A stretch of DNA of 64,000 nucleotides from Actinoallomurus purpureus (lineage in GTDB: Bacteria > Actinomycetota > Actinomycetes > Streptosporangiales > Streptosporangiaceae), in contig NZ_JAMXMY010000023.1 of NCBI RefSeq assembly GCF_024055795.1, forward strand, positions 1 through 64,000, in the 5' to 3' direction. The notes under the pieces are model-generated. The model searched no databases and was not told where the DNA came from. It saw only the letters and a program-made list of their open reading frames with translations. Below, piece after piece: positions 15,141 through 26,951 of this stretch; the first letter of the stretch is position 1, and each line of letters begins with the position of its first letter. The position numbers were made by a program, and so were the translations under genes.

Positions 15141-15149
15141 AGTGTATCA
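15141..15149 (-). promoter_or_regulatory. Extended -10 promoter for the thrS leader
   Basis: Reads TGA-TACACT on the minus strand: a TGn extended -10 followed by TACACT, matching the actinobacterial TANNNT. The TGA is also the stop codon of the upstream PIG-L gene. The first transcribed base would fall at or next to the A of the leader-peptide ATG (15134). No convincing -35 is seen. Confidence 0.5.
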
Positions 15150-17048
15150 GCGGCCGATCGCCCGCCAGGCGGCGTGCGCGCCGCCCGAGCGCGGCGCCAC
15201 GTGCAGCCGCCCGTCCGCGCCCAGGGCGCACAGCTGCGTGCCGTCCGGCAGCGGCGCGGGGGCCCCGACCAGCTGCGATCGGGGAAGAGTGCCGGTGACG
15301 GGCGCCTCGCCGTCGAGGTCCGACGCGGCCCGTACGAGGGCGGGGCTGTCCCATACGCCGGTCGCGGCCGACCTGGAGATCATCAGAGTCCGGGCGGTCC
15401 ACGGCTCGCGGAACATCACCCGGACCTGGCCGGCGGCCTGCTCGGCGGCGAGCGGCGCGATCGCACCGGCCACCGGCAGCGCCCCGGCGAAGGCGAGGGG
15501 CCTGCCCTGCTGGTGCTGGCGCCACCACAGGATCTGCGAGCGGGTCGCGGCGAACAGCTCGATCAGTCCACCGTCGGTGACGATCACCGCCAGGCCGTCC
15601 TGGACGTCGCCGTACCGGCGGTGCTTCTTCTTCGGCTGCGGCGAGACGACCTGCCGCAGGTCGACGCCCGGCAGGTCCGTCCACGCGTGGCTCCAGCCGC
15701 CGGTGCCGAGGAAACGCGCGCTGACGCCACCGCGACCGTTGCGCACGAACACCGCGAGCATCCCCGAGCCGTCGACCACGGCCACCGGGGCTCCGGCCTG
15801 GTTGTGGATCTTCGCCGGATCGGGCCGGCCGAGCGACTGCCAGCCCCGCTGGTCGTACGCGACGATCTCTCCGTTGTCGGCGCGCAGGCCGAGGACCATC
15901 GGTCCGGCCGCGACCACGGACGGCGCCAGCGGGCCTCCCGGATCGCCGAGCGCGCGAGGGGGCGACCAGCGGCCGCCCTTACGCCGCCAGACGACCAGGC
16001 GGCCCCCGCCGACCGCGTACACGGCGTCCGTGGCGGTGAAGCCGGTGCCGCGCGGCCACCGGTAGACCATGCGCGCCTCGTAGGCGTCCCAGTGGGGGTT
16101 CTCGGCGTTGATGCGGTAGTCGTGCGCGGAGTAGGCCGAGAACACGCGCTGCTTGAACCCGTTGGCGGTCTCGCTCAGGTTCACCGCCAGGTTGCGGATG
16201 TTGTAGTCCCGGTAGTTGACCTGCAGGAGGAGCTGCTCGGGGTGGCGTGCGACGTGGCGGCGCACGGCCTCCCCGGCGAAGCGGGCCGCCGCGATGTGGT
16301 CGGGGTGGTCCGCGCTGTACCGCTCGTCCGGCGCGATGTCCTGGGAGCGCACGACGGTCGGCCGGAAACCCTGGATCAGACCGGTGAGCGCGCCGAGGAC
16401 GTCCTCCCGGCCGAGGCACCGCCGGTACGGCGACCCCACCGGCGCCTGCGTCCATCCGCACTGGTCCGGATGGTGGGCGACGTCCCACAGCTTGCCCAGC
16501 GTGTGCCAGCTCAGGCTGGCCCGCGGGTCACGCCCGTCCGGTACCAGCAGGAACACCAGCTGGATGTCCGGCCGGTCGACGAGGGTGTACGACAGCAGCC
16601 GCAGTGTCCCCGCCTTGAGGGTCTGTCGGCGCCACCGGTCAGGGACGCCGAGCATGAGGGCGTACGCCGTGCGCGCCCCGCTCTGCCGTTCGGCGACGTA
16701 GGCGTTCACGTCGTGGGTGTCGGGCGGGACGCCGGCCGTGCTCTCCCCCGCGCTGAGGTAGACCGTCATGTGCGGCGAGCCTGCGCGCAGCGACTCCGAC
16801 AGGTCGGGGGTCATGAAGAGCAGGTCGTCGTCCTCGTGCGCGACGATCTGAAGGTAGCGCGAGCGGGCCGCCGGGGTTCCCGGCGCCGCCGCGCCGTGGC
16901 GGTCGGTCGGCCCGCCGCTGGCCCGGCTCTCCGACAGCAGGCCCATTCCCGTCCCCAGTCCGGCGGCGGCGACCGCGCCGATCAGAAAGAACCGCCGCCG
17001 GTCGACCCCCGACGGAGAAGGCTCCGAGGCGGACGGTTCGGTGGACAT
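15147..17048 (-). CDS. Tat-exported PIG-L deacetylase with C-terminal propeller domain
   Basis: About 633 aa. Twin-arginine signal [15 protein letters not shown], then a PIG-L/LmbE N-acetylglucosaminyl deacetylase domain: [14 protein letters not shown] gives the zinc-binding HxDD-type motif and HPDHIAAA the third His ligand. The C-terminal half (from about residue 320) has repeated segments such as [20 protein letters not shown] and [15 protein letters not shown], typical of lectin-like or sialidase-like propellers. The start at 17048 lies just before the signal. Likely acts on a secreted or surface amino sugar; the substrate is unknown. Confidence 0.82.
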
Positions 17049-17333
17049 GCGGCACTGTCTCCAAGATCGGTCTAAGTGGTGGCGACCGAATGAGTATCGC
17101 GGAATGTCGGCACTCCTGTAGCGCGGAACGGGACGCCGAGGCGTCGAGTAGGCTGGGCGCGGCGAAGGGGAGTAGTCCCGCCGGCCGGTCGTCGACATGC
17201 TGGAGCGCCTCGCGCTCCCGGTGCCCGGGCCCCGTGACAGGGGTGGACGAGACCTTCGGCTGCCGGTGACCGCTGATCACCGTGAGCCGAGGTCTTCTTC
17301 TTGTCTCACGGTGCCCGATCCTTGAGGGAACTC

Positions 17334-18404
17334 ATGCTGCACGTCGTGATCCTGCTGGCATGCGCCGTGGCGATCTACCTGTCCTGCGAGTGGTTCGTCA
17401 ACGCCGTGGAGTGGCTGGGCGTCCGGCTGAAGGTGGGCCCGCTCGCGGTCGGCACTCTTCTCGCCGCGTTCGGCACCGCTCTTCCGGAGAGCGTCGTGAC
17501 CTTCATCGCCGTGGTGTTCGGCTCCAGCCCGGATCAGAAGGACATCGGGGTCGGCGCGGCGATGGGCGGCCCCCTGGCCCTGGCCACCGTCGCGTACGGC
17601 GTGACGGGTTTCATGATGCTGACGAGCCGCCGGAGGGTCCGGGCCGCCGCCCGTACGGCCGCTCCCGTCGGCGGCGGAACCGCCGCGCCCCCCGACGCGC
17701 CGAGCGGCGCCGCGGCCGCGCCGGGTGACGACCTGGGCGACACGGACAAGCTCGCGCGCGACCAGCGCTGGTTCCTCGCCATCTTCGTGGTCAAGGTGGC
17801 GGTGGGCCTGGTGGCCTTCGCGTACAAGCCGTGGCTCGGCCTGCTGTTCTTCGCCGCGTACGCCGTCTACTTCTGGCGGGAGCTGCGCGACGGCGGAGAG
17901 CACGGCGACGGGGCCGACCTCGAGCCGCTGCTTCTGCAGCGCCGTCGCGAGGTGCCGGCGACGTGGGCCGTCGTCACGCAGAGCCTCGTCACGCTTGTGA
18001 TCATCTTCTTCGCGTCGCAGCTGTTCGTGCACCAGCTCGACGCGATCGGCCCGATGATCGGCCTGCCCGCGGCGGTCACCGCGCTGCTGCTCTCCCCCAT
18101 CGCCACCGAGCTGCCCGAGATCATGAACGCCATCATCTGGGTCCGCCAGGGCAAGACGCCTCTCGCCCTGGCCAACATCAGCGGCGCGATGATGATCCAG
18201 GCGACCGTGCCCTCCGGGCTGGGCATCCTGTTCACGCCGTGGCGGTTCGACGGCGCCCTGCTCCTGTCGGGGGTAGTGACGATGGCCGCCATGGTCTTCC
18301 TGCTGGCCATGCTCCGGACGGGTCGCCTCACCGCCCGGACCCTGACCATGGCGGCCGCGTTCTACGCGGTCTTCGGGCTCTGCCTGATCCCGGTGCTGTC
18401 CTGA
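17334..18404 (+). CDS. CaCA-family sodium/calcium exchanger
   Basis: 356 aa from the ATG at 17334 (GAGGGAA upstream). Multiple hydrophobic helices and the two inverted alpha-repeat motifs of cation/Ca2+ antiporters: GTLLAAFGTALPESVVTFIA and LLSPIATELPEIMNAIIW. A hydrophilic loop rich in Ala/Pro (about residues 100-150) separates the halves. Probably exchanges Ca2+ or another cation for Na+/H+ at the plasma membrane; the ion is not predictable. A TTG at 17301 would add 11 residues. Confidence 0.88.
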   Translation: MLHVVILLACAVAIYLSCEWFVNAVEWLGVRLKVGPLAVGTLLAAFGTALPESVVTFIAVVFGSSPDQKDIGVGAAMGGPLALATVAYGVTGFMMLTSRRRVRAAARTAAPVGGGTAAPPDAPSGAAAAPGDDLGDTDKLARDQRWFLAIFVVKVAVGLVAFAYKPWLGLLFFAAYAVYFWRELRDGGEHGDGADLEPLLLQRRREVPATWAVVTQSLVTLVIIFFASQLFVHQLDAIGPMIGLPAAVTALLLSPIATELPEIMNAIIWVRQGKTPLALANISGAMMIQATVPSGLGILFTPWRFDGALLLSGVVTMAAMVFLLAMLRTGRLTARTLTMAAAFYAVFGLCLIPVLS

Positions 18405-18455
18405 TCGCTGCGCCGCGGACCGGTCGGTGTCGCCCTGCGACCTCCGCGGACGGAG

Positions 18456-18815
18456 TCAGGACTTGCCGGCCAGGCGGCCGCGCACGTCGTCCATGTCGAG
18501 GGCGCGCACCTGCTCGATGAGGCTCTCCAGCGACTCGGCGGCAAGCGCGCCGGGCTGGGCGAACACGATCACGCCGTCGCGGATCGCCATGATCGTGGGG
18601 ATGGACCTGATGTCGAAGCGCTCGGCCAGGTCCTGCTCGGCCTCGGTGTCGACCTTGCCGAACACGATGTCCTCGTGCTTGACCGACGACTCCTCGTAGA
18701 TCGGCGCGAACATCCGGCACGGCCCGCACCAGCTCGCCCAGAAGTCGACCAGGACGATGCCCTCGCCGCTCGCCGTCTTCTCGAAAGTGTCGGTCGTCAG
18801 CGTCGTCGTCGCCAT
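18456..18815 (-). CDS. trxA: Thioredoxin
   Basis: 119 aa with active site FWASWCGPCRMFAP and the cis-Pro segment IRSIPTIMAI. A cytoplasmic protein disulfide reductase. GAGGAG lies 6-7 nt before the ATG at 18815. Convergent with the cation exchanger. Whether it is the main thioredoxin or an accessory copy cannot be told here. Confidence 0.93.
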   Translation of the reverse strand: MATTTLTTDTFEKTASGEGIVLVDFWASWCGPCRMFAPIYEESSVKHEDIVFGKVDTEAEQDLAERFDIRSIPTIMAIRDGVIVFAQPGALAAESLESLIEQVRALDMDDVRGRLAGKS

Positions 18816-18816
18816 G

Positions 18817-19026
18817 TCACTGCTCCTCGATGTCGGGGAAGCGGGACCCCGCCGGGCCGCCCGCCCCCTGCACAACAGAGGAGTCACCTCGGTAATTCCG
18901 GCGACGCGCCCGCGCGTGCGGTCCGGCGATGATGGCCACGACCCCCGACGTCACAGCCCGGTTCCCGGTCATGGTCATGGTCATGCCGGAGGCACCCGGG
19001 ATGCGAAACTCATCGAGAGTCATCAC
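18817..19026 (-). CDS. Small hypothetical ORF before thioredoxin
   Basis: 69 aa, not recognised. It has AGGAG about 9 nt before its ATG, and its stop overlaps the region just before the thioredoxin ATG, which would allow coupling. Composition (MTMTMTGNRAVTSGVVAIIAG then an Arg-rich stretch) is not convincing. It lies between the secreted peptide gene and trxA on the same strand. It may be chance. Confidence 0.2.
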   Translation of the reverse strand: MMTLDEFRIPGASGMTMTMTGNRAVTSGVVAIIAGPHARARRRNYRGDSSVVQGAGGPAGSRFPDIEEQ

Positions 19027-19084
19027 CGGACCGCTCCTGAGGCGCGCCCGTGCCGGGGACGCACCGCGGAGTCGTCAGGAGTGC

Positions 19085-19225
19085 TCAGCAGCACCTGCTG
19101 AACGACGAGTCCGACGAGGAGTCGACCGACACCGAGGCGGAGGCGGCCCCCGCGACCTGCAGGGCGACAAGTGAAGTGACTATAGCCAAAACGAACAGGG
19201 CGATGACCCTGCGAAGGTGTGACAT
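19085..19225 (-). CDS. Short secreted peptide, candidate signal for the adjacent TPR regulator
   Basis: 46 aa. A textbook signal peptide: basic MSHLRR, hydrophobic VIALFVLAIVTSLVALQV, then AxA-type site GAASA. The predicted mature peptide is SVSVDSSSDSSFSRCC, acidic/Ser-rich with two terminal cysteines. AAGGA lies 9 nt before the ATG. The gene starts 52 bp from a divergent XRE-TPR regulator. Secreted pro-peptides beside HTH-TPR regulators are the layout of RRNPP (Rap/PlcR/Rgg) quorum sensing in Firmicutes. Here the link is by position only; no export or import partner is adjacent. Confidence 0.6.
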   Translation of the reverse strand: MSHLRRVIALFVLAIVTSLVALQVAGAASASVSVDSSSDSSFSRCC

Positions 19226-19277
19226 TATTTTCTATCCTTTCGCGTGGTTCTGTCATTTTCTTGTAGAGGCGGGCGGG

Positions 19278-20576
19278 ATGCCAGGTCAAGAATCGCTCGG
19301 GGAACGGGTTCGTAACTTCCGGCTGCGCAAGCAGCTTTCGCAGGCCCAGTTGGCCTGGCCGGAACTCTCCGACAGCTATGTGTCACTCATCGAAAGCGGC
19401 AAGCGCACCCCCGCGCCGAGCATGGTGGCACTGCTGGCGCGCAAACTCGGGTGCTCCGAGTCGTACCTCCTCACCGGCGTCACCGAGGAGACGATCAGCG
19501 GGCTCCGGGAGACGCTGGGCTACGCCCAGATCGCACTGCAGAACGGCGCCGCCTCCGAGGCCCGCATCCGCTTCGCGGAGGTCCTCGCCGACCCGGCCCT
19601 CACCGATCTCCCCGCGCTCGCGCACGAAGCCCGCTGGGGTCACGCGCTGGCGCTCGAGGCGACCGGCGCGCTCGAGGAGGCGATCAGCGACCTCGAACTC
19701 GCCACGCAGACCCTCTCGCCGCTGTCGGAACCCGAACGATGGGCCGAGGTGCACACCGCGCTCAGCCGGTGCCACCGCGAACGCGGGGATCTGGCACGCA
19801 GCATTCAGGTCGGCGAGGACGCCCTCGAACAGCTGACCGCGGCCGGAGGTCAGTGGACCGACACGATGGTGATGCTCGGCTCCACCATCCTCGCCGCCTA
19901 TGAGCAGCGCGGCGACCTGGCCTACGCGCGGCAGCTCGCCACGATGCTCATCGAGCGCGCGGAGGCGATCGGCAGCCCCCGCGCGCTGATGGCCGCGTAC
20001 TGGAACGCCGCTTGGGTGGCGGACCTGCGCAGCGACGCCCGGGAAGCGCTGAAGCTGTCCGAACGCGCGATCGCCCTGCTCGGTGAGGAGGACGATTCCC
20101 GTAACCTTCCGCGGCTGCGGATGGCGTACGCCCACTTCCTGCTACGTGCCCAGCCCGAGCAGGCCGAGCACGCCCGCGAGCTACTGGACCAGGCCGAGCG
20201 GGAGATGGACTCCAGCGCCGCGAGCACCGTCGACATCGCGTGGTGCCTCATGTACCAGGCGCAGGCCGAGATCACGCTGGGGCGGCCGGTCGAGGCCGCC
20301 TCGCTGGCACGGCGGGCGACCGAGATGCTCGCCGACACGGCGGGGATGGCCATCGCGGAGGCGTACACCGTGCTGGGCGACGCCCAGGTGCGTCTCGGCC
20401 TCCGCGAGGAGGCGGTCGCCGCCTTCTCCCAGGCGGTGGAGTACCTGGAGAAGATGGAGGCGCACCGGCCCGCTGCCCGCGCGTGGTTCGACCTCGCCGA
20501 GTTGCTGGGGGCCGCGGGTCAGGCCGACGGCCAGAAGGCGGCCTTCCAGCGCGCTCTCGCCTGCATGGGGCTCTGA
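19278..20576 (+). CDS. XRE-family HTH regulator with TPR sensor domain
   Basis: 432 aa from the ATG at 19278; the frame is open further upstream without similarity. Residues 1-70 are a Cro/CI-type HTH (LGERVRNFRLRKQLSQAQLA, YVSLIESGKRTPAPSMVALL, ending at SYLLTG). The rest is a helical array of tetratricopeptide-like repeats (for example RWGHALALEATGALEEAISD and AEAYTVLGDAQVRLGLREEA) able to bind a peptide or protein. Same order and similar size to RRNPP regulators. The 52-bp divergent spacer with the secreted peptide gene probably contains promoters and operator for both. Confidence 0.85.
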   Translation: MPGQESLGERVRNFRLRKQLSQAQLAWPELSDSYVSLIESGKRTPAPSMVALLARKLGCSESYLLTGVTEETISGLRETLGYAQIALQNGAASEARIRFAEVLADPALTDLPALAHEARWGHALALEATGALEEAISDLELATQTLSPLSEPERWAEVHTALSRCHRERGDLARSIQVGEDALEQLTAAGGQWTDTMVMLGSTILAAYEQRGDLAYARQLATMLIERAEAIGSPRALMAAYWNAAWVADLRSDAREALKLSERAIALLGEEDDSRNLPRLRMAYAHFLLRAQPEQAEHARELLDQAEREMDSSAASTVDIAWCLMYQAQAEITLGRPVEAASLARRATEMLADTAGMAIAEAYTVLGDAQVRLGLREEAVAAFSQAVEYLEKMEAHRPAARAWFDLAELLGAAGQADGQKAAFQRALACMGL

Positions 20577-20764
20577 CCTGCGATTATCCAGCGGGCACTC
20601 GTCCGCACGGAGCCGGGGCGTTCCCGCCGCCCCGGCCCGTACGGAACTCCACCCGGGAGCCGGGAACCGATCGTCGGCCCGTCGCGTCTGTTTTGTCGTT
20701 GATGAGGGTTTGCTCCGGAGAAGCCGGAAAAACCCTGAGGATGCGATTCTCGGAGGAAGACGTG

Positions 20765-20908
20765 ATGGTTCGGCGGATCCGGCTGGCGACGGTGGCGGTC
20801 GCGGCGCTCGCACCCGCGTTGCTCACGCTGTCGGCCTGCGGCCACTCCCACCACGTGGTGCACCACCATGTCGTGCACCACCACGTGGTGGTGCACCGCC
20901 ACCACTGA
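20765..20908 (+). CDS. Histidine-rich mini-lipoprotein
   Basis: 47 aa. GGAGG lies 8 nt before the ATG. A basic MVRRIR, a hydrophobic core and lipobox LSAC (Cys25) indicate a lipid-anchored surface peptide. The mature 23 residues carry 12 histidines in a VVHHH-type repeat (CGHSHHVVHHHVVHHH and so on). Such a sequence should bind Zn, Ni, Co or Cu at the cell surface, but no metal transporter is adjacent. A perfect 12-bp terminator hairpin follows 10 nt after the stop, supporting a separate transcription unit. Not assigned to any family I know. Confidence 0.65.
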   Translation: MVRRIRLATVAVAALAPALLTLSACGHSHHVVHHHVVHHHVVVHRHH

Positions 20909-20917
20909 GCGATACCG

Positions 20918-20944
20918 CACCGGCCGGGGAACCCCCGGCCGGTG
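20918..20944 (+). terminator. Terminator after the His-rich lipoprotein
   Basis: CACCGGCCGGGG (20918-20929) pairs perfectly with CCCCGGCCGGTG (20933-20944) around AAC. Rho-independent-like stem without a clear T-tract, usual for high-GC actinomycetes. Confidence 0.6.
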
Positions 20945-20964
20945 GACGGATTCCCCGATACCTC

Positions 20965-20993
20965 TTGACGTACGGGCGGAATCGACTCATCCT
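20965..20993 (+). promoter_or_regulatory. Promoter of the GH8 gene
   Basis: TTGACG at 20965-20970 and CATCCT at 20988-20993, separated by 17 bp. The palindromic operator begins 6 bp later, so it would cover the transcription start. Confidence 0.5.
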
Positions 20994-20998
20994 CGGAG

Positions 20999-21023
20999 CT
21001 TGTTAGGAAACCTTCCTAACAAG
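20999..21023. promoter_or_regulatory. Palindromic operator upstream of GH8
   Basis: CTTGTTAGGAA (20999-21009) and TTCCTAACAAG (21013-21023) are perfect 11-bp inverted arms with a 3-bp centre. The core TTAGGAAA-x-TTCCTAA resembles, from memory, the box bound by the ROK-family repressor CsnR near chitosanase and other glycoside hydrolase genes in Streptomyces. No ROK regulator is in this window, so control would be in trans. Confidence 0.65.
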
Positions 21024-21083
21024 AGTCGCCCGGGCACCGGCGTGCCGAACCGGCGACGCAGTCCCCCTCCGAGGAGCCCCGCC

Positions 21084-22337
21084 ATGCTCGACAGAAAGGG
21101 CCGGTCGACCGCCCTCGCCACCGCGGTCGCCGCAATGTCGCTCCCCCTCATCGCCATGACCGGCCAGGCCGGCGCCGCTCCGGCGGCCGCTGCCCGGCCG
21201 GCCCGCGCGGCCGCCGCCCCCGCGCACCCCTTCCCGGCGCACGTCACCTACAAGACGGGTGTCATGCCGTCCGCGAGCCAGTCCACGCGGGACGCCGCCG
21301 TCACGAAGCAGTACGCCTCCTGGAAGAGCAAGTACCTGCGCTCGGCCTGCGGCGGCTACCTCGTCTACGCGACCGATGACGCGCCCAACAAGGGCACCGT
21401 CTCCGAGGCGCAGGGGTACGGCATGAACATCGTGCCGCTCATGGCCGGATACGACGCCGACGCGCAGGCGGAGTTCGACGGGCTGTGGCACGTGGTGTCG
21501 ACCCACCGCGACTCTCAGGGCATGATGCAGTGGAAGATCGACGGCAGTTCCTGCAAGTACGCCGACTCCGGCACCCCGGACGCCGCCACCGACGGAGACC
21601 TCGACGTCGGATACGGCCTGGTCCTCGCCGACAAGCAGTGGGGCGGCTACACCAGCGCCGCGAAGGACTGGCTGGCCAAGCTCTACGCCGCCGACGTCGC
21701 CCCCGACGGGCATCTCAAGTGCGAGGACGACGGTCCGAACACCGACACCCGCCCGTCCGACCACATGCTCGACCACCTGCGCGCCTTCGCCGCCTACGAC
21801 ACCGCCCACGACTGGAACAAGGTCGTCACGCGCACCGAGGCCGTGATCCAGGAGTTCACCGCGAAGTACTCCTCCACCGCGAACCTGCTGTCGGACTTCG
21901 TGGTGAACGCCAACACCACGAGCCCGAAGCCGGCTCCCGCCGACTACCAGGAGAGCCAGCCGGACAACATCGTCGGCTACAACTCGGTGCGCGTCCCCTG
22001 GCACATGGGCACCGACGCCCTGGTGTACGGGTCGCCGGTGACCATCGGCGTCGCCACGAAGGAGTCCGCCGCCTACAAGAGTCACGCGGGCGGCGACCCC
22101 GCCAAGATCTACCCGCACACGAAGCTCGACGGCACCCCCACGCAGACCGATGACCAGTCCGAGGCGGCCAACGACCCGGTCGGCGTGGCCGCCATGGCCG
22201 CCGGGGACCAGGCATGGACCGACAAGCTCTGGAACTTCCTGGCCACCAACCCGTACGGCGACACGTACTACGGCGAGACGATCAAGATGCTCGTCTACAT
22301 CGTCATGGCCGGTGACTACTGGTCGCCCGCGAGCTGA
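21084..22337 (+). CDS. Secreted glycoside hydrolase family 8 enzyme
   Basis: 417 aa from the ATG at 21084 (GAGGAG 8 nt upstream). Signal peptide with TGQAGAAPAAA, then a GH8 alpha6/alpha6-barrel: SEAQGYGM supplies the general acid Glu and ATDGDLDVGYGLVLAD the family signature with the catalytic Asp. GH8 includes endoglucanases, chitosanases, lichenases and xylanases; specificity is not decided by what is seen. The upstream CsnR-like palindrome favours chitosan or cellulose as substrate. Ends at a strong hairpin shared with the convergent GH31 gene. Confidence 0.85.
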   Translation: MLDRKGRSTALATAVAAMSLPLIAMTGQAGAAPAAAARPARAAAAPAHPFPAHVTYKTGVMPSASQSTRDAAVTKQYASWKSKYLRSACGGYLVYATDDAPNKGTVSEAQGYGMNIVPLMAGYDADAQAEFDGLWHVVSTHRDSQGMMQWKIDGSSCKYADSGTPDAATDGDLDVGYGLVLADKQWGGYTSAAKDWLAKLYAADVAPDGHLKCEDDGPNTDTRPSDHMLDHLRAFAAYDTAHDWNKVVTRTEAVIQEFTAKYSSTANLLSDFVVNANTTSPKPAPADYQESQPDNIVGYNSVRVPWHMGTDALVYGSPVTIGVATKESAAYKSHAGGDPAKIYPHTKLDGTPTQTDDQSEAANDPVGVAAMAAGDQAWTDKLWNFLATNPYGDTYYGETIKMLVYIVMAGDYWSPAS

Positions 22338-22347
22338 GACCCGCGAA

Positions 22348-22386
22348 GCCGCCCGGCCGGTGACCTCTGGTCACCGGCCGGGCGGC
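22348..22386. terminator. Bidirectional terminator between GH8 and GH31
   Basis: A perfect 18-bp stem, GCCGCCCGGCCGGTGACC (22348-22365) with its complement at 22369-22386 and loop TCT, located between two convergent genes. Confidence 0.8.
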
Positions 22387-22401
22387 GTCCGTCGTGCTGG
22401 G

Positions 22402-24507
22402 TCAGCCCGCCTGCGCGACGCCCGTGCGCCTGAGCGCGCGGATCGCCTTGGCGGCTCCCTCGGCCTTCAGGTCGACGAACGCCGGGGTGACGTCCAGGGG
22501 TGTGCGGTAGCCGCGGAGCGTCTTCGGGCCCCGGATGACGGTGCCGTGGTTCACGTCGAACCACGTTCCGGACGGGAGGAACACGTCGCGGGTGACGCCG
22601 CCGGTCAGCTGCGGCGCCGCCAGCACCGCCGGGCCGAGCATCCACTCGTCGTTCACCGTGTAGGCCGTGGCGTCCTTCGGGAAGTCGAAGAACAGCGGGC
22701 GCATGATCGGGTCGCCGGTGGCGACGCTGTGCCTCACCTGGTCCCAGATGTAGGGCGCGAGCCGGCCGTGCGCCTTCACTGCCTCGCGGTAGCGGTCGAT
22801 GGTCTCCTGGTCGTACGCGACGGGCTTACCGGTCTTCGGGTCGTTGGTGCCGGCGGGCGAGGTGGAGGAGTACATCAGCGGCATCAGCGACGCCGACTGC
22901 GCCCAGCGGATGAGGACGTCCTTCTTCGGCGCGGGCTGGCTGCTCGAGCCGCCGATCATGTCGGTCTCGACGAACGGGTAGCCGATCGTGGAGATCGCGA
23001 GGTTCTGGCTGACCGAGGCGGCGAGGGAGTTCCAGCCCGTCCCCTTGTCGATCTGGCGGATGACGAAGCCGGTCTTCTGGGACCCGCTCCAGTGCACCCG
23101 GATGCCCGCGCCCTGCAGGTCGAACTGGTCGGCCAGCTCCGCGCCGAGCCGCTGGTAGTCGGCGCGCTTGTAGCCGGGGTCGGGCGCGCACGTGTCGTCG
23201 AAGAAGCGGGTGTCGAACTTGAAACCGTCGACCCGGTAGGTGCTCATCAGCTTCTTGAGGTTCGCGACGTACCACGCCTTGGCGTCGGGGTTGGCCAGGT
23301 CGACGATGCCGGCGGTGCCGTTCCACCACGTCACGTTGCAGGGCTTCGTGCTGTCGTTCTTGTCCTTCAGCAGGTAGCCGTGGTCGGCGGCGTACTGGTG
23401 GTTCGTGGAGTCGAGGTTGATCCAGAGTGTGACCCAGATGCCGAAGTCGTAGCCCATCGCGTGGATCTTGTCCGACATCGCGCGGGCGTCGGGGAAGGTC
23501 TTCGGGTCGAAGGTCAGGTTGCCGTAGTTGGACTCCCACTTGTCGTCGAGCTGGATGGTGTGCCCGGGGATGCCGTTGGCGTGCAGCTTCTGGGCGTAGT
23601 CGAGGAGCTTGGTCTGGTCGACCTTCGTGTAGAACTGCGCCCAGGAGTTCCACAGCGGCTTCGCGTACTGCGTGTAGGTGGCGTCGCTCTTCGCGGGCTT
23701 GCCGACGACACCGGTGTGGTCGCGGTACACCTCGCGGGGGTCCGCCTCGACGAACACCGTCGCGTTGTACGTGCCGCCCGAGTCGATCGTGAAGCGCCCG
23801 AGACCGTCGTCGCCGTCGTTGATGGCGACGTCCATGACCTCTCCGGTGTCGACCAACAGGCCCGTGGCGCTGGAGGTGTACCAGAACGGGTCGACCATCT
23901 CGTACGCGGCGGGGCCGAACGCGCTGTCGTGCACGTGCCCGGTCTCCAGCGGCCAGGGCTGGTCGACGCCGGGACCGCCCTGCGGGGTGGCCGTCTCGCC
24001 GTGGCCGTACCAGTGCCCACCCGACTTCAGGTCGTACGCCAGTCCGAGCCGGTCGGGGCTGCCGCCCTTGACGCTCCAGGACAGGGCGTACCGGTCGGCC
24101 TTCGGTGTGAGCAGCGCCTCGGCCGTGACGCCGCCCTGCGTGGTCGCCGCGTGGAGGCGAAGGACACCGTTCTTCCACGTCCAGCCGGTGACCTTGGTCG
24201 CCCGCTGCCAGGCCCCGCCCGCGTGGAAGCGGAGGCCGCCGGTGGCGCCGCCCGCCGTGGCCAGCACCGTACGCCCGCGGCGCGCGGTCGTGATGTTCAG
24301 GGACCCGGTGGTGATGTCGACCGAGTAGCCGGGCGCCCCGGACGACGCGGGCACCGTCACGGTCACGGAGTCGGAGTCGTGGGTGACGCGCGGGCCGCCG
24401 GCCGGCCCGGTCGCGGCCTGCGCGGGCGATACGGCGACGAGCGCGCCGAGCGCCGGCGCCGCGAGGGAGAGGCCGACCCTGGCGAGTCGGTCATGCCATG
24501 ACAGCAC
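22402..24507 (-). CDS. Secreted glycoside hydrolase family 31 protein
   Basis: 701 aa, GTG start with AAGGAGG 7 nt upstream. A signal peptide ending SPAQA, an N-terminal beta-domain, then the GH31 barrel: IQLDDKW and FGIWVTLWINLDS, the nucleophile segment VDGFKFDTRFF and the acid/base region YPFVETDMIGG. A C-terminal beta-sandwich follows (GPAVLAAPQLTGGVTRDVFLP). Likely an exported alpha-glucosidase, alpha-xylosidase or related alpha-glycosidase; the narrow specificity is not predictable. Convergent with GH8, so the two may act on plant or microbial polysaccharide together. Confidence 0.85.
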   Translation of the reverse strand: MLSWHDRLARVGLSLAAPALGALVAVSPAQAATGPAGGPRVTHDSDSVTVTVPASSGAPGYSVDITTGSLNITTARRGRTVLATAGGATGGLRFHAGGAWQRATKVTGWTWKNGVLRLHAATTQGGVTAEALLTPKADRYALSWSVKGGSPDRLGLAYDLKSGGHWYGHGETATPQGGPGVDQPWPLETGHVHDSAFGPAAYEMVDPFWYTSSATGLLVDTGEVMDVAINDGDDGLGRFTIDSGGTYNATVFVEADPREVYRDHTGVVGKPAKSDATYTQYAKPLWNSWAQFYTKVDQTKLLDYAQKLHANGIPGHTIQLDDKWESNYGNLTFDPKTFPDARAMSDKIHAMGYDFGIWVTLWINLDSTNHQYAADHGYLLKDKNDSTKPCNVTWWNGTAGIVDLANPDAKAWYVANLKKLMSTYRVDGFKFDTRFFDDTCAPDPGYKRADYQRLGAELADQFDLQGAGIRVHWSGSQKTGFVIRQIDKGTGWNSLAASVSQNLAISTIGYPFVETDMIGGSSSQPAPKKDVLIRWAQSASLMPLMYSSTSPAGTNDPKTGKPVAYDQETIDRYREAVKAHGRLAPYIWDQVRHSVATGDPIMRPLFFDFPKDATAYTVNDEWMLGPAVLAAPQLTGGVTRDVFLPSGTWFDVNHGTVIRGPKTLRGYRTPLDVTPAFVDLKAEGAAKAIRALRRTGVAQAG

Positions 24508-24647
24508 CCGATGCCTCCTTGTGAGGGTTCAGCAGGGCTGGCACCCCGAATCCCGGCCCGTGCAAGGTCATGATTTTTTCTGCTCATACTTCGATCCGAG
24601 CGAGCACATGTCAACAGAGCCTCGTGGGGAAACTCGAGCAGACCTGG

Positions 24648-26951
24648 TCACTCTCGCGAAGCGTCATCAGCCATCCAACCTGCGATCTGGGCGCGCGAGT
24701 TGAAGCCGAGCTTGTTCAGGATGTTGCGGACATGGCTCTCGACGGTTCGTTCGGATATGAACAGGCGCGAGCCGATCTCTTTGTTGGTCAGACCGTCGGC
24801 CAAGAGCCGTGCGACATCGGCTTCGCGCCGTCCGAGAACTCCGACGCTCTCATGATCTGAAGCCGCGACAGCGGAAGGAGCGGCCTCGCGGAGCGCGAGC
24901 CGCGCTGCGGCATCTCTGCCGAGCTGCTGCCCGGCCTTGAATTCCGCCTCGAATTTCGATGGGCCGAGTGTCGCCGTCACCGACATGGTGGCATGCGCGA
25001 ATGCCGGAGCCATGCCCGCATTGATGGTGGCCCCCACTTCGGCGCGCAGGTTCTCCATCGCCCCGAAGAGCTGCGCTGCCAGCCGCGGCTCGCGCGACCC
25101 GGCCGCACAGCAGCCCAGCGCTCCGAGCAGGTAGCACTGTGCCAACCGGTCATCGAGTCGGCGGGCGATCCGCAGACCTTCAGCGAACAGTCGCTCGGAC
25201 TCAGGAAGGTCCCGGGACATCAGCGCGGCGAAGCCCTGGTTCATCAGCATCATGTCGAGGCTGTACAGGTCGCCCACCTCGCGGCTCAGCCGCGCGCCCT
25301 GCGATGCCACCGATCTGACCGCGTCGAGATCGCCATCGAGGAAGCCGTTGAGCGCTCGTGCCTGGTGAATCATGAGCGTGGCTCCTGGGTCATCCAGACC
25401 ATCAGCGACGCCCCGCGCCTCGTCGAGCAGCCGCCTCGATGACGTGCGATCACCGGCCATGTTCGCGGCGATCGACGCCATGGCAAGTGACTGCGACAGC
25501 GCATCGAGCTGTCCCGCTGCGCGAGCCGCCACCACGCCGCGTTCGAGCGCCGGCAGGGCAGCCGCTGGGTCGCTCTGCAGGACGCCGAGGAATCCACGGA
25601 CGAAGTACGCCCACGGGTGAGCGGCAGGCTCAGCATCTCGTACGAGCAGCTCGTCGAGGCACCGCACGCCCTCAGCCGTAGCGCGCGTGACCCAGAACCA
25701 GACCAGGCAGGTTGCGAGATCGATACCGCGCCCGGAGTCATCCTGGTCCATGCATCCGCGGAGGACCGCTCGGACGTTGTCGATCTCCAGCTCCATCCAA
25801 GCGAGCCACTCGACCAGCCGGTATCGTCCCTCCGCCGCAAAGTCCAGACAACGCGACACGTAATAGTCGGCGCAGCGCCGTTCGACGGCGCCCTCCTCCC
25901 CCGCCTCGTGCAGCTTGAGGCGCGCGTATTCCCGCATCGTCTCGTGCAGTCGGTAGCAGACGGCGCCGTCGGCGTCCTCCTTGGTCACCAACGACTTGTC
26001 GAGCAGCGATGACAGTAGGTCCAGCGCACGCGCCGCCGGCAGGTCGCCGGAGCAGCACACCGCCTCGACGTCTGCCAGTGTGAAGCGGCCCGCGAACACG
26101 CACAACCGCGTGAGCAGCGTCCGCTCGGCAGGCGCCAGCAGGTCGTAGCTCCACCCGATCGTGGTGCGCAGCGTCTGGTGGCGCGGGAGCGCATCCCGGC
26201 TACCGCCGGTGAGAAGGACGAACCGGTCGGCCAGGCGGTCGCGGATCTGCTCGGGGCTCAGCGCCCGCGTCCTGACGGCCGCCAACTCGATCGCCAGGGG
26301 AAGGCCGTCGAGTCGGTGGCACAGGTCGACGACCGCCTCCTGGTTGGAGTCGGTCAGCTCGAAACTGCCCGATGCCGCGGCCGCCCGCTCGATGAACAGC
26401 CTGACGGCCTCGTTCTGGCGCAGCCGGGCGAGCGGCCCGGGGGCGCGAGGTGACGGCAACTGTAGCGGCGGAACTGGCAGCACATGCTCACCGGCCACCG
26501 ACAATGGCTCGCGGCTGGTCGCGATCACGCGCACCCCCGGCCCCGCCCTCATCACGTCGCTGACGAGCTGAGCAGCGGCTTCGAGCAGGTGTTCGCAGTT
26601 GTCCAGGACCAGCAGCAGTTCCTTGTCCTTGAGATACGACCGGATCAGGGCCACTGGCTCGATCGCGGCCTGGTCGCGTAGGTCGAGGGCGGCCATGACA
26701 GCGTTGCTGACCAGCGCCGGATCGCGCAGCTCAGCGAGCTCGACCATCCAGATGCCGCCTGGGAAACCGCGTCCGAGGTCGGTCGCGATGCGGATCGCAA
26801 GGCGTGTCTTGCCCACACCGCCCGGGCCGACCAGGCTGACCAGACGCGCGACCGTCAGCCTCTTCCTGACTTCGGCCAACTCATGGCGGCGGCCGACGAA
26901 ACTCGCCGCCTCGGCGGGCAGATTGCCCGACCGGCGGGCGGGCTTGGGCAC
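24648..26951 (-). CDS. LuxR-family regulator with NB-ARC-like ATPase
   Basis: 767 aa, GTG start. The N-terminal ATPase has Walker A LVGPGGVGKTRLAIRIA and Walker B LLLVLDNCEHLLEA, followed by a winged-helix and helical repeat region. The C-terminus is a LuxR/GerE HTH (LGRREADVARLLADGLTNKE, then SERTVESHVRNILNKLGF). Such proteins act as signal-gated activators. It is divergent from the DUF4386/precursor/YcaO/TfuA genes with a 155-bp spacer and is the obvious candidate to control that RiPP locus. Confidence 0.87.
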   Translation of the reverse strand: MPKPARRSGNLPAEAASFVGRRHELAEVRKRLTVARLVSLVGPGGVGKTRLAIRIATDLGRGFPGGIWMVELAELRDPALVSNAVMAALDLRDQAAIEPVALIRSYLKDKELLLVLDNCEHLLEAAAQLVSDVMRAGPGVRVIATSREPLSVAGEHVLPVPPLQLPSPRAPGPLARLRQNEAVRLFIERAAAASGSFELTDSNQEAVVDLCHRLDGLPLAIELAAVRTRALSPEQIRDRLADRFVLLTGGSRDALPRHQTLRTTIGWSYDLLAPAERTLLTRLCVFAGRFTLADVEAVCCSGDLPAARALDLLSSLLDKSLVTKEDADGAVCYRLHETMREYARLKLHEAGEEGAVERRCADYYVSRCLDFAAEGRYRLVEWLAWMELEIDNVRAVLRGCMDQDDSGRGIDLATCLVWFWVTRATAEGVRCLDELLVRDAEPAAHPWAYFVRGFLGVLQSDPAAALPALERGVVAARAAGQLDALSQSLAMASIAANMAGDRTSSRRLLDEARGVADGLDDPGATLMIHQARALNGFLDGDLDAVRSVASQGARLSREVGDLYSLDMMLMNQGFAALMSRDLPESERLFAEGLRIARRLDDRLAQCYLLGALGCCAAGSREPRLAAQLFGAMENLRAEVGATINAGMAPAFAHATMSVTATLGPSKFEAEFKAGQQLGRDAAARLALREAAPSAVAASDHESVGVLGRREADVARLLADGLTNKEIGSRLFISERTVESHVRNILNKLGFNSRAQIAGWMADDASRE

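Follow-up and report, generated by a model that had tools for sequence, protein, structure and literature searches.

A peptide with a Cys-Cys end encoded divergently from an XRE-TPR regulator in Actinoallomurus purpureus: a candidate propeptide-receptor signalling module in actinomycetes

The window analyzed here, a stretch of 64 kb from the genome of Actinoallomurus purpureus, contains a gene for a 46-residue peptide with a Sec-type signal and a Cys-Cys (CC) end, divergent from a gene for an XRE-TPR regulator, and it is likely, in our judgment, that these two genes constitute a propeptide-receptor signalling module. Directly observed are the conservation of the pair, its specificity for one regulator subfamily, the co-variation of the peptide end with receptor residues, and tandem end units in one propeptide; expression, export, maturation, re-import and binding of the peptide, the direction of regulation and the target genes are inferred. 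The best reading is a system that works like RRNPP (NprR/PlcR) and is spread through the class Actinomycetes. The recurrence of the pair in several actinomycete families suggests a peptide signalling system that is undescribed for them in the literature searched; no description of an actinobacterial XRE-TPR regulator paired with a secreted peptide was found in the open-licence PMC literature. The features of the pair are:

19085..19225, minus strand: propeptide gene, 46 aa, with a Sec-type signal and a 16-residue tail that ends Ser-Arg-Cys-Cys
19136..19225, minus strand: signal-peptide part, residues 1-30, with cleavage between AASA and S by rule (from sequence; inferred)
19088..19135, minus strand: predicted mature part SVSVDSSSDSSFSRCC, its last residues being the inferred signal unit (from sequence and conservation; inferred)
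19226..19277, no strand: 52-bp intergenic region, alike in 8/8 genus loci (by eye)
19278..20576, plus strand: XRE-TPR regulator, 432 aa, the inferred peptide receptor (Pfam, orthologues, model)
19296..19475, plus strand: HTH DNA-binding domain, residues 7-66 (Pfam, model)
19485..20564, plus strand: TPR superhelix, residues 70-429, with the inferred peptide-binding groove (model, fold comparison)

The ORF at 19085-19225 on the minus strand translates to MSHLRRVIALFVLAIVTSLVALQVAGAASASVSVDSSSDSSFSRCC and comprises an n-region (MSHLRR), a hydrophobic core, an AASA cleavage-type motif and the 16-residue tail with its CC end; the cleavage site was placed by eye, following the A-x-A rule. The original prediction, of a 46-aa peptide with these properties starting 52 bp from a divergent regulator, was confirmed in its coordinates and starts. 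The window contains no second CC-ended, signal-like ORF in the size range of 35-75 aa. For 19 close peptide pairs (20 were tried, and one was removed by a 50% identity filter), 162, 103 and 236 differences were counted at codon positions 1, 2 and 3, respectively, which is a coding pattern. A Pfam scan of the peptide gave no significant match, no PHROGs family matched it, and no NCBIfam model was above cut-off for either the peptide or the regulator.

With the ATG of the regulator at 19278, 52 bp (19226-19277) remain between both starts, and the control elements of both genes must lie inside this region or overlap it; no operator was identified. In five loci of another family, an ACTAC-CTG-TAGT palindrome is found shortly before the start of the regulator; operator function of the intergenic sequences is only inferred. 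A TGACA...TGTCA half-site in the intergenic region of the genus was rejected because one half overlaps the first codons of the peptide.

For the regulator (432 aa), the Pfam families HTH_3, HTH_31, TPR_12 and TPR_8 all exceed their cut-offs, and matches in PHROGs were to transcription-regulator families only. An AlphaFold2 model (7 sequences; mean pLDDT 89.8, pTM 0.81) predicts the HTH domain followed by helices over residues 70-429, which we read, from the model, as nine TPR helix pairs. The description of the protein as an XRE HTH with TPR-like helices, initially made from the sequence alone, is therefore upheld by Pfam and by the model.

An orthologue of the regulator (type A) is present in all eight genomes of the genus including the source, with 70-80% identity in the other seven; the six named orthologue records are from five Actinoallomurus and one Actinomadura sp. 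All eight orthologues are accompanied by a divergent ORF of 46-57 aa, with its ATG 52-61 bp before the regulator start, and all eight ORFs have an MSHLRR-like beginning, a hydrophobic core and a CC end. For a paralogue (B; 51-53% identity), a divergent CC peptide was found in 5/8 genomes, with the end FHCC in four of the five, and for a third paralogue (C; 39-43%) a CC peptide was found in 0/8. The lack of a short signal ORF beside orthologous regulators had been named beforehand as grounds for refutation; such ORFs are present at 8/8 orthologues and, furthermore, in several other families.

Genomes of the family and beyond were sampled as drawn by the search tool, and a uniform rule was applied for CC ORFs (35-75 aa, hydrophobic segment, CC end, at most 450 bp from the regulator). 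Among the matches listed, 71 of 120 genomes of the family sample carry the regulator at E<=1e-30. The same-family set of 85 regulators comprises the listed search matches down to about E 1e-82, plus G077:C10; left out were G010:C376 and all lower matches, except eight low-scoring genus genes (type C) that served as controls, and not included were second genes on the same stretches (L077b, with a CC peptide; L066b and L103b, with none). A CC signal ORF adjoins 62 of these 85 regulators (A, 8/8; B, 5/8; others of the family, F, 49/69). The same is true of 34/42 regulators that come from the class but from outside the family (tier 2); the class search gave 46 matches outside the family, of which G363, G372, G424 and G462 were left out. 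Control XRE-TPR regulators had a CC ORF in 0/16 cases (C, 0/8; other family regulators, T3, 0/8). The rule was satisfied by 1 of 1,430 shuffles and by none of 273 tiles of the window. Within 500 bp of regulators at the loci scanned, 106 CC-ended signal ORFs were found in 166 kb, and none in 358 kb of farther flanks or in 246 kb inside regulators.

The CC ORF is absent from 23/85 same-family and 8/42 other-family regulators. Nine of the 23 same-family cases have a peptide with the same signal and a non-CC end, and 14 have none; the scan outside the family was targeted at CC ends, so that other ends there would be missed. A further 15 loci came from an order search, most of them belonging to the genus suspected of non-CC ends (13 with a non-CC peptide, one with a CC peptide, one with none). 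No credible peptide was seen near the regulators of L017-L019, L039, L042-L046, L048 and L051 on re-inspection, and these were treated as orphans. The position of the peptide gene varies (divergent, antiparallel downstream and, at one locus, co-directional upstream), and it remains adjacent. Among named records, Nonomuraea gerenzanensis (NZ_LT559118) has a divergent peptide with the end TGDAGCC; Streptomyces goshikiensis (NZ_CP115937) has an annotated hypothetical protein (WP_008741297.1; end DIPLCC) just downstream of the regulator; and Streptomyces sp. NBC_01707 (NZ_CP109191) has a small annotated ORF (end DLPLCC) about 1.9 kb downstream. CC peptides are also present in Nonomuraea and Streptomyces records of the plasmid collection, and no CC peptide was found at the named loci L173, L174 and L175. 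In genus g87 (probably Streptomyces, as inferred), 42/101 genomes carry the regulator at E<=1e-35, and of 30 loci examined, six of the ten best-scoring and none of the 20 others have a CC peptide. Regulators from outside the class had a CC peptide in 0/5 cases examined, with a sixth match left out.

In the phage collection and IMG/VR, matches were limited to a partial relative in one 11.9-kb phage record and one HTH-only match in IMG/VR. The phage record (MT836207.1, 'Bacteriophage sp.', human faeces) carries its relative, unannotated and 38% identical, at 104-1069. Other single observations concern gene copies. At L140, a second CC signal-like ORF (+1434..+1607 from the regulator start) is found in addition to the divergent one, so that two candidates flank one receptor. 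L056/L094 (G063) and L066 (G099) contain tandem receptor genes, with a divergent peptide gene only at the first. At L028 and L030 (G001:C1:7347888-7348184), fragments of a second regulator copy, 67% and 79% identical, lie about 1.4 kb from the intact one and are possibly a decayed duplicate.

No conserved target gene was recognized beside the pair, in that none of the 14 largest clusters of neighbouring genes includes loci from the window's family together with loci from other families. Two clusters, one PucR-like (33 loci; its representative falls short of the Pfam cut-off) and one of CopC type (14 loci), look like synteny, and most of the clusters are unidentified. Thioredoxin was considered as a functional partner of the peptide and dropped, as its gene was seen only at loci of the genus Actinoallomurus (most flanks 1.5-2.5 kb). 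Just downstream of the regulator in the window (20765-20908, plus strand), there is a 47-aa lipoprotein-like ORF that consists largely of His-Val repeats (ACGHSHHVVHHHVVHHHVVVHRHH), with relatives at L006, L008 and L010. The surroundings at 15147-26951 encode, by Pfam, a PIG-L deacetylase, a Na/Ca exchanger, the thioredoxin, GH8, GH31 and an NB-ARC LuxR-type regulator, with no evident functional link to the pair. Near the pair of N. gerenzanensis there is a 946-aa ORF that is SARP/AfsR-like by eye (L171, 2678-5518, minus strand), and near that of S. goshikiensis an annotated BTAD regulator (L172, 6205-9212, minus strand).

It is the C-terminal end that seems to be the code. In some clades the peptide tails are constant (six loci share GPRVHCC, and six of another family share WPxMCC); in other clades they vary fast, even between close receptors, yet still end CC, so that only the very end may be read. 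One clade, which includes Streptosporangium, has the same kind of signal sequence followed by ends such as GWNHPD, GWGYPD, GWGWPG and PWQWPI; among its first nine loci, one ends LGPLNNAE instead. In 16/16 genomes of the genus to which Streptosporangium sp. NBC_01495 belongs, a divergent peptide is encoded whose end resembles W-x-x-P or W-x-x-A; one propeptide of this non-CC genus contains four tandem GWNGPD units, and another contains two related units. Second paralogues in five genomes of this Streptosporangium-like genus are without a peptide; these paralogues correspond to the entries L103 and L163-L166 and were counted once.

The receptor positions for which co-variation with the peptide end was seen in the regulator alignment are, in the window:

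19884..19886, plus strand: T203, TPR4 A-helix; Thr in 63/63 same-family CC receptors, Gln in 17/22 non-CC receptors
19992..19994, plus strand: A239, TPR5 A-helix; Ala in 63/63 same-family CC receptors, Leu in 20/22 non-CC receptors
20001..20003, plus strand: W242, TPR5 A-helix; Trp in every peptide-bearing receptor examined, lost in several peptide-less clades
20100..20105, plus strand: R275-N276, start of the TPR6 A-helix; N276 in 63/63 same-family CC receptors, 0/22 non-CC receptors

All 63 same-family CC receptors have T/A/W/R/N at residues 203/239/242/275/276. For the 34 CC receptors of tier 2, the counts are T 30, A 23, W 34, R 33 and N 27, and for the 22 non-CC receptors they are W 22, R 20, T 2, A 0 and N 0, with mostly Q, L and R at 203, 239 and 276. 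T203, A239 and N276 are thus exchanged where the end of the peptide changes, and W242 and R275 stay. The five residues were selected for contrast on part of the data and in the same alignment. Of receptors that were not used for the choice, 13 later ones, which belong to the non-CC clade, have T203, A239 and N276 in 0/13 each, and eight Streptomyces or Streptomyces-like CC receptors have T203, W242 and R275 in 8/8 and A239 in 6/8, with His or Ala at position 276. The switch away from CC is confined to one clade and therefore represents one event (plus several losses). From the order of the helices in the model, the side chains of all five residues are inferred to face the groove; the pheromone pocket of RRNPP receptors is the concave TPR surface (PMC9765709).

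Several, not all, of the receptors without a peptide have lost the signature residues. Losses were seen in C (W 0/8, R 2/8), in T3 (W 3/8, R 1/8) and in Streptomyces-type receptors (W 12/26, R 7/26). The residues are often retained in peptide-less F regulators (n = 11; W242 in 8, R275 in 10, N276 in 5), and the counts are W 8, R 7 and N 4 for those of tier 2 (n = 8) and W 4, R 3 and N 0 for those from outside the class (n = 5). The three B orphans retain all five residues except N276 (Asp).

The co-change of peptide end and receptor residues, the tandem end units, and the persistent adjacency despite relocation mean that position is not the sole ground for the pairing, and RRNPP-like peptide signalling, as first proposed for the locus, is supported in the sense of 'works like'; secretion, re-import and binding are unproven. 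In fold comparison, the regulator model resembles peptide-bound Rap (Z about 24), NprR (Z 22.9 and 21.1), AimR and PlcR; MalT, APPBP2 and APC/C subunits outscore Rap and NprR, and the likeness of the modelled fold is not specific on its own, the TPR fold being generic. The profile of the full protein finds PlcR (2e-9, over HTH and first TPRs) and NprR (9e-8, over TPRs) among 11 chains at E<=1e-5, some of them kinesin-like, designed or other TPR proteins; with the profile of TPR2-7 alone (residues 118-354), kinesin light chains rank above NprR. Placing the pocket on NprR by the latter profile was abandoned, since generic TPR matches came first and no residue mapping was obtained. No RRNPP model in Pfam or NCBIfam was above cut-off, and the AimR model gave only E 0.034, for a B paralogue. 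Proteins with generic TPRs reach similar or higher scores in these comparisons, and common descent of the receptor with Rap/Rgg/NprR/PlcR/PrgX/AimR is no more than a possibility.

PlcR contains five TPRs, ComR reads a C-terminal doublet (WW in XIP), and we know of no CC code in NprX. RRNPP receptors contain five to nine TPRs and, in those subfamilies that are regulators, also an HTH (PMC9765709); the present regulator fits this description (Pfam; nine helix pairs as read in the model). An adjacent gene for a secreted propeptide with a C-terminal signal is likewise given, the C-terminal unit being constrained or repeated and secretion predicted only. For the binding of a re-imported peptide in the concave groove, with an effect on receptor activity, the co-variation of receptor residues with the peptide end is the only indication, and an indirect one. 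The actinobacterial genomes searched lie outside the known range of RRNPP (Bacillota and their mobile elements), and this is less a mechanistic criterion than distribution; according to PMC9765709, RRNPP is reported in Firmicutes, with all but one match within Bacilli. NprR-NprX of Bacillus likewise has an HTH with nine TPRs and an adjacent exported propeptide; it differs by phylum and by gene order, the Bacillales pheromone gene lying immediately downstream (PMC9765709) and the actinomycete one being mostly divergent. NprR also carries an extra three-helix bundle (PMC9765709). PlcR-PapR of Bacillus similarly combines an HTH-TPR transcription regulator and an exported propeptide; PlcR has fewer than the nine TPRs of the actinomycete regulator, and there is no CC code, PapR7 being ADLPFEF. 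Rap-Phr of Bacillus and phages has the TPR groove fold in common with the regulator; Rap is without a DNA-binding domain (PMC9765709), unlike the actinomycete regulator. Phr propeptides are reported to contain pheromone units in repeated or pseudo-repeated form (PMC11343458), as does one actinomycete propeptide. ComR-ComS and Rgg-SHP of the Lactobacillales likewise have a small peptide gene near an HTH receptor; their TPRs are degenerate, the doublet is not CC, and only Lactobacillales are given for them in PMC9765709.

Among actinobacterial TPR regulators, the NsdA family of Streptomyces (NCBIfam NF053720) scored 18-35 bits in 6/8 regulators scanned, with no match in two, and its curated cut-off of 75 bits was not reached by any regulator scanned. 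Peptide signalling is not unheard of in actinobacteria, given that 'TPR' is among the quorum-sensing-related entries for some actinobacterial genera, and cyclic or modified peptides are mentioned, in an older review (PMC4748050).

In the proposed mechanism, the product of the small gene would be a propeptide that is exported via the Sec route, and its C-terminal residues, ending in Cys-Cys, would be released by cleavage as a short signal. The processed signal is inferred to return to the cytoplasm, presumably via an oligopeptide permease, where it may occupy the groove at TPR4-6 of the XRE regulator from the divergent gene. This would alter how the regulator binds DNA in the promoter region common to both genes, and probably also at further genes.

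Other explanations were weighed against this signalling module. If the function of the Cys-Cys (or His-Cys-Cys) end is to bind metal or thiols, the two genes would form a module of metal or redox homeostasis without cell-cell signalling; CC or HCC ends are found in most lineages, a thioredoxin gene adjoins, the His-rich lipoprotein-like ORF is present in the window and at three other genus loci, and the CopC-domain cluster lies downstream in 14 same-family loci. However, in the flanks examined, the thioredoxin adjacency is limited to the genus and CopC to one family, so that both may be plain synteny, and the tails of the non-CC clade are without Cys, yet the layout, the signal, W242 (22/22) and R275 (20/22) are kept. 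We regard this explanation as unlikely. The peptide could also be a bacteriocin or membrane-active toxin, and the XRE-TPR protein would then repress it or regulate it in the manner of an antitoxin. Toxin loci, too, can consist of a small hydrophobic peptide next to an XRE protein, fast-varying tails would suit antagonism, and no permease or maturation gene was recognized in the short flanks examined; this is nevertheless quite unlikely, considering that the constrained part is the end (CC across families; W-x-x-P-like in one clade and tandem in one propeptide), that receptor residues switch with it, and that orphan receptors are retained where the peptide is missing, which is not the behaviour of an antitoxin (all this without a dedicated search for immunity genes).

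A circuit of export and import can operate inside a single cell, and the peptide is short and hydrophobic with a gene start adjoining that of the regulator. The peptide might never be re-imported but stay in the membrane, or act cell-autonomously, to modulate the regulator or an envelope process; in that case the pair would sense the state of secretion, not population density. We hold this to be very unlikely, as the tail is predicted outside the membrane, beyond the cytosolic TPR groove unless re-imported, and tandem tail copies suit released units. Spurious ORFs are abundant in this GC-rich DNA, and hardly any room is left for a chance ORF or annotation artefact, which is refuted by the conservation, the shuffles, the coding pattern and the absence of such ORFs elsewhere.

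An extension of the signalling module that we put forward only tentatively, and which is rather doubtful, is that a C-terminal Cys-Cys is the general code of a class-wide pheromone system with intracellular receptors, recognized in the form of a free dithiol or of a vicinal disulfide, and the strength of the signal would then also report the redox state; the code would have been replaced once, by the W-x-x-P-like units of the Streptosporangium clade, and the receptor may represent a lineage separate from the RRNPP of Bacillota. On this extended reading, peptides of the CC type would be candidates for the unidentified oligopeptide signals that are imported by Streptomyces through BldK.

Actinomycetes are the makers of many known antibiotics. 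Their signals are typically small molecules made by enzymes, according to PMC10075063. With a genetically encoded pair that occurs in 8/8 genomes of the genus, elsewhere in the class and on Streptomyces plasmids, signalling in these bacteria would become accessible to direct tests: each peptide could be made synthetically, its sequence being known from the genome, and cultures that receive it could be examined for genes that are switched on, and the clade with the switched code would provide a natural specificity swap for structural work.
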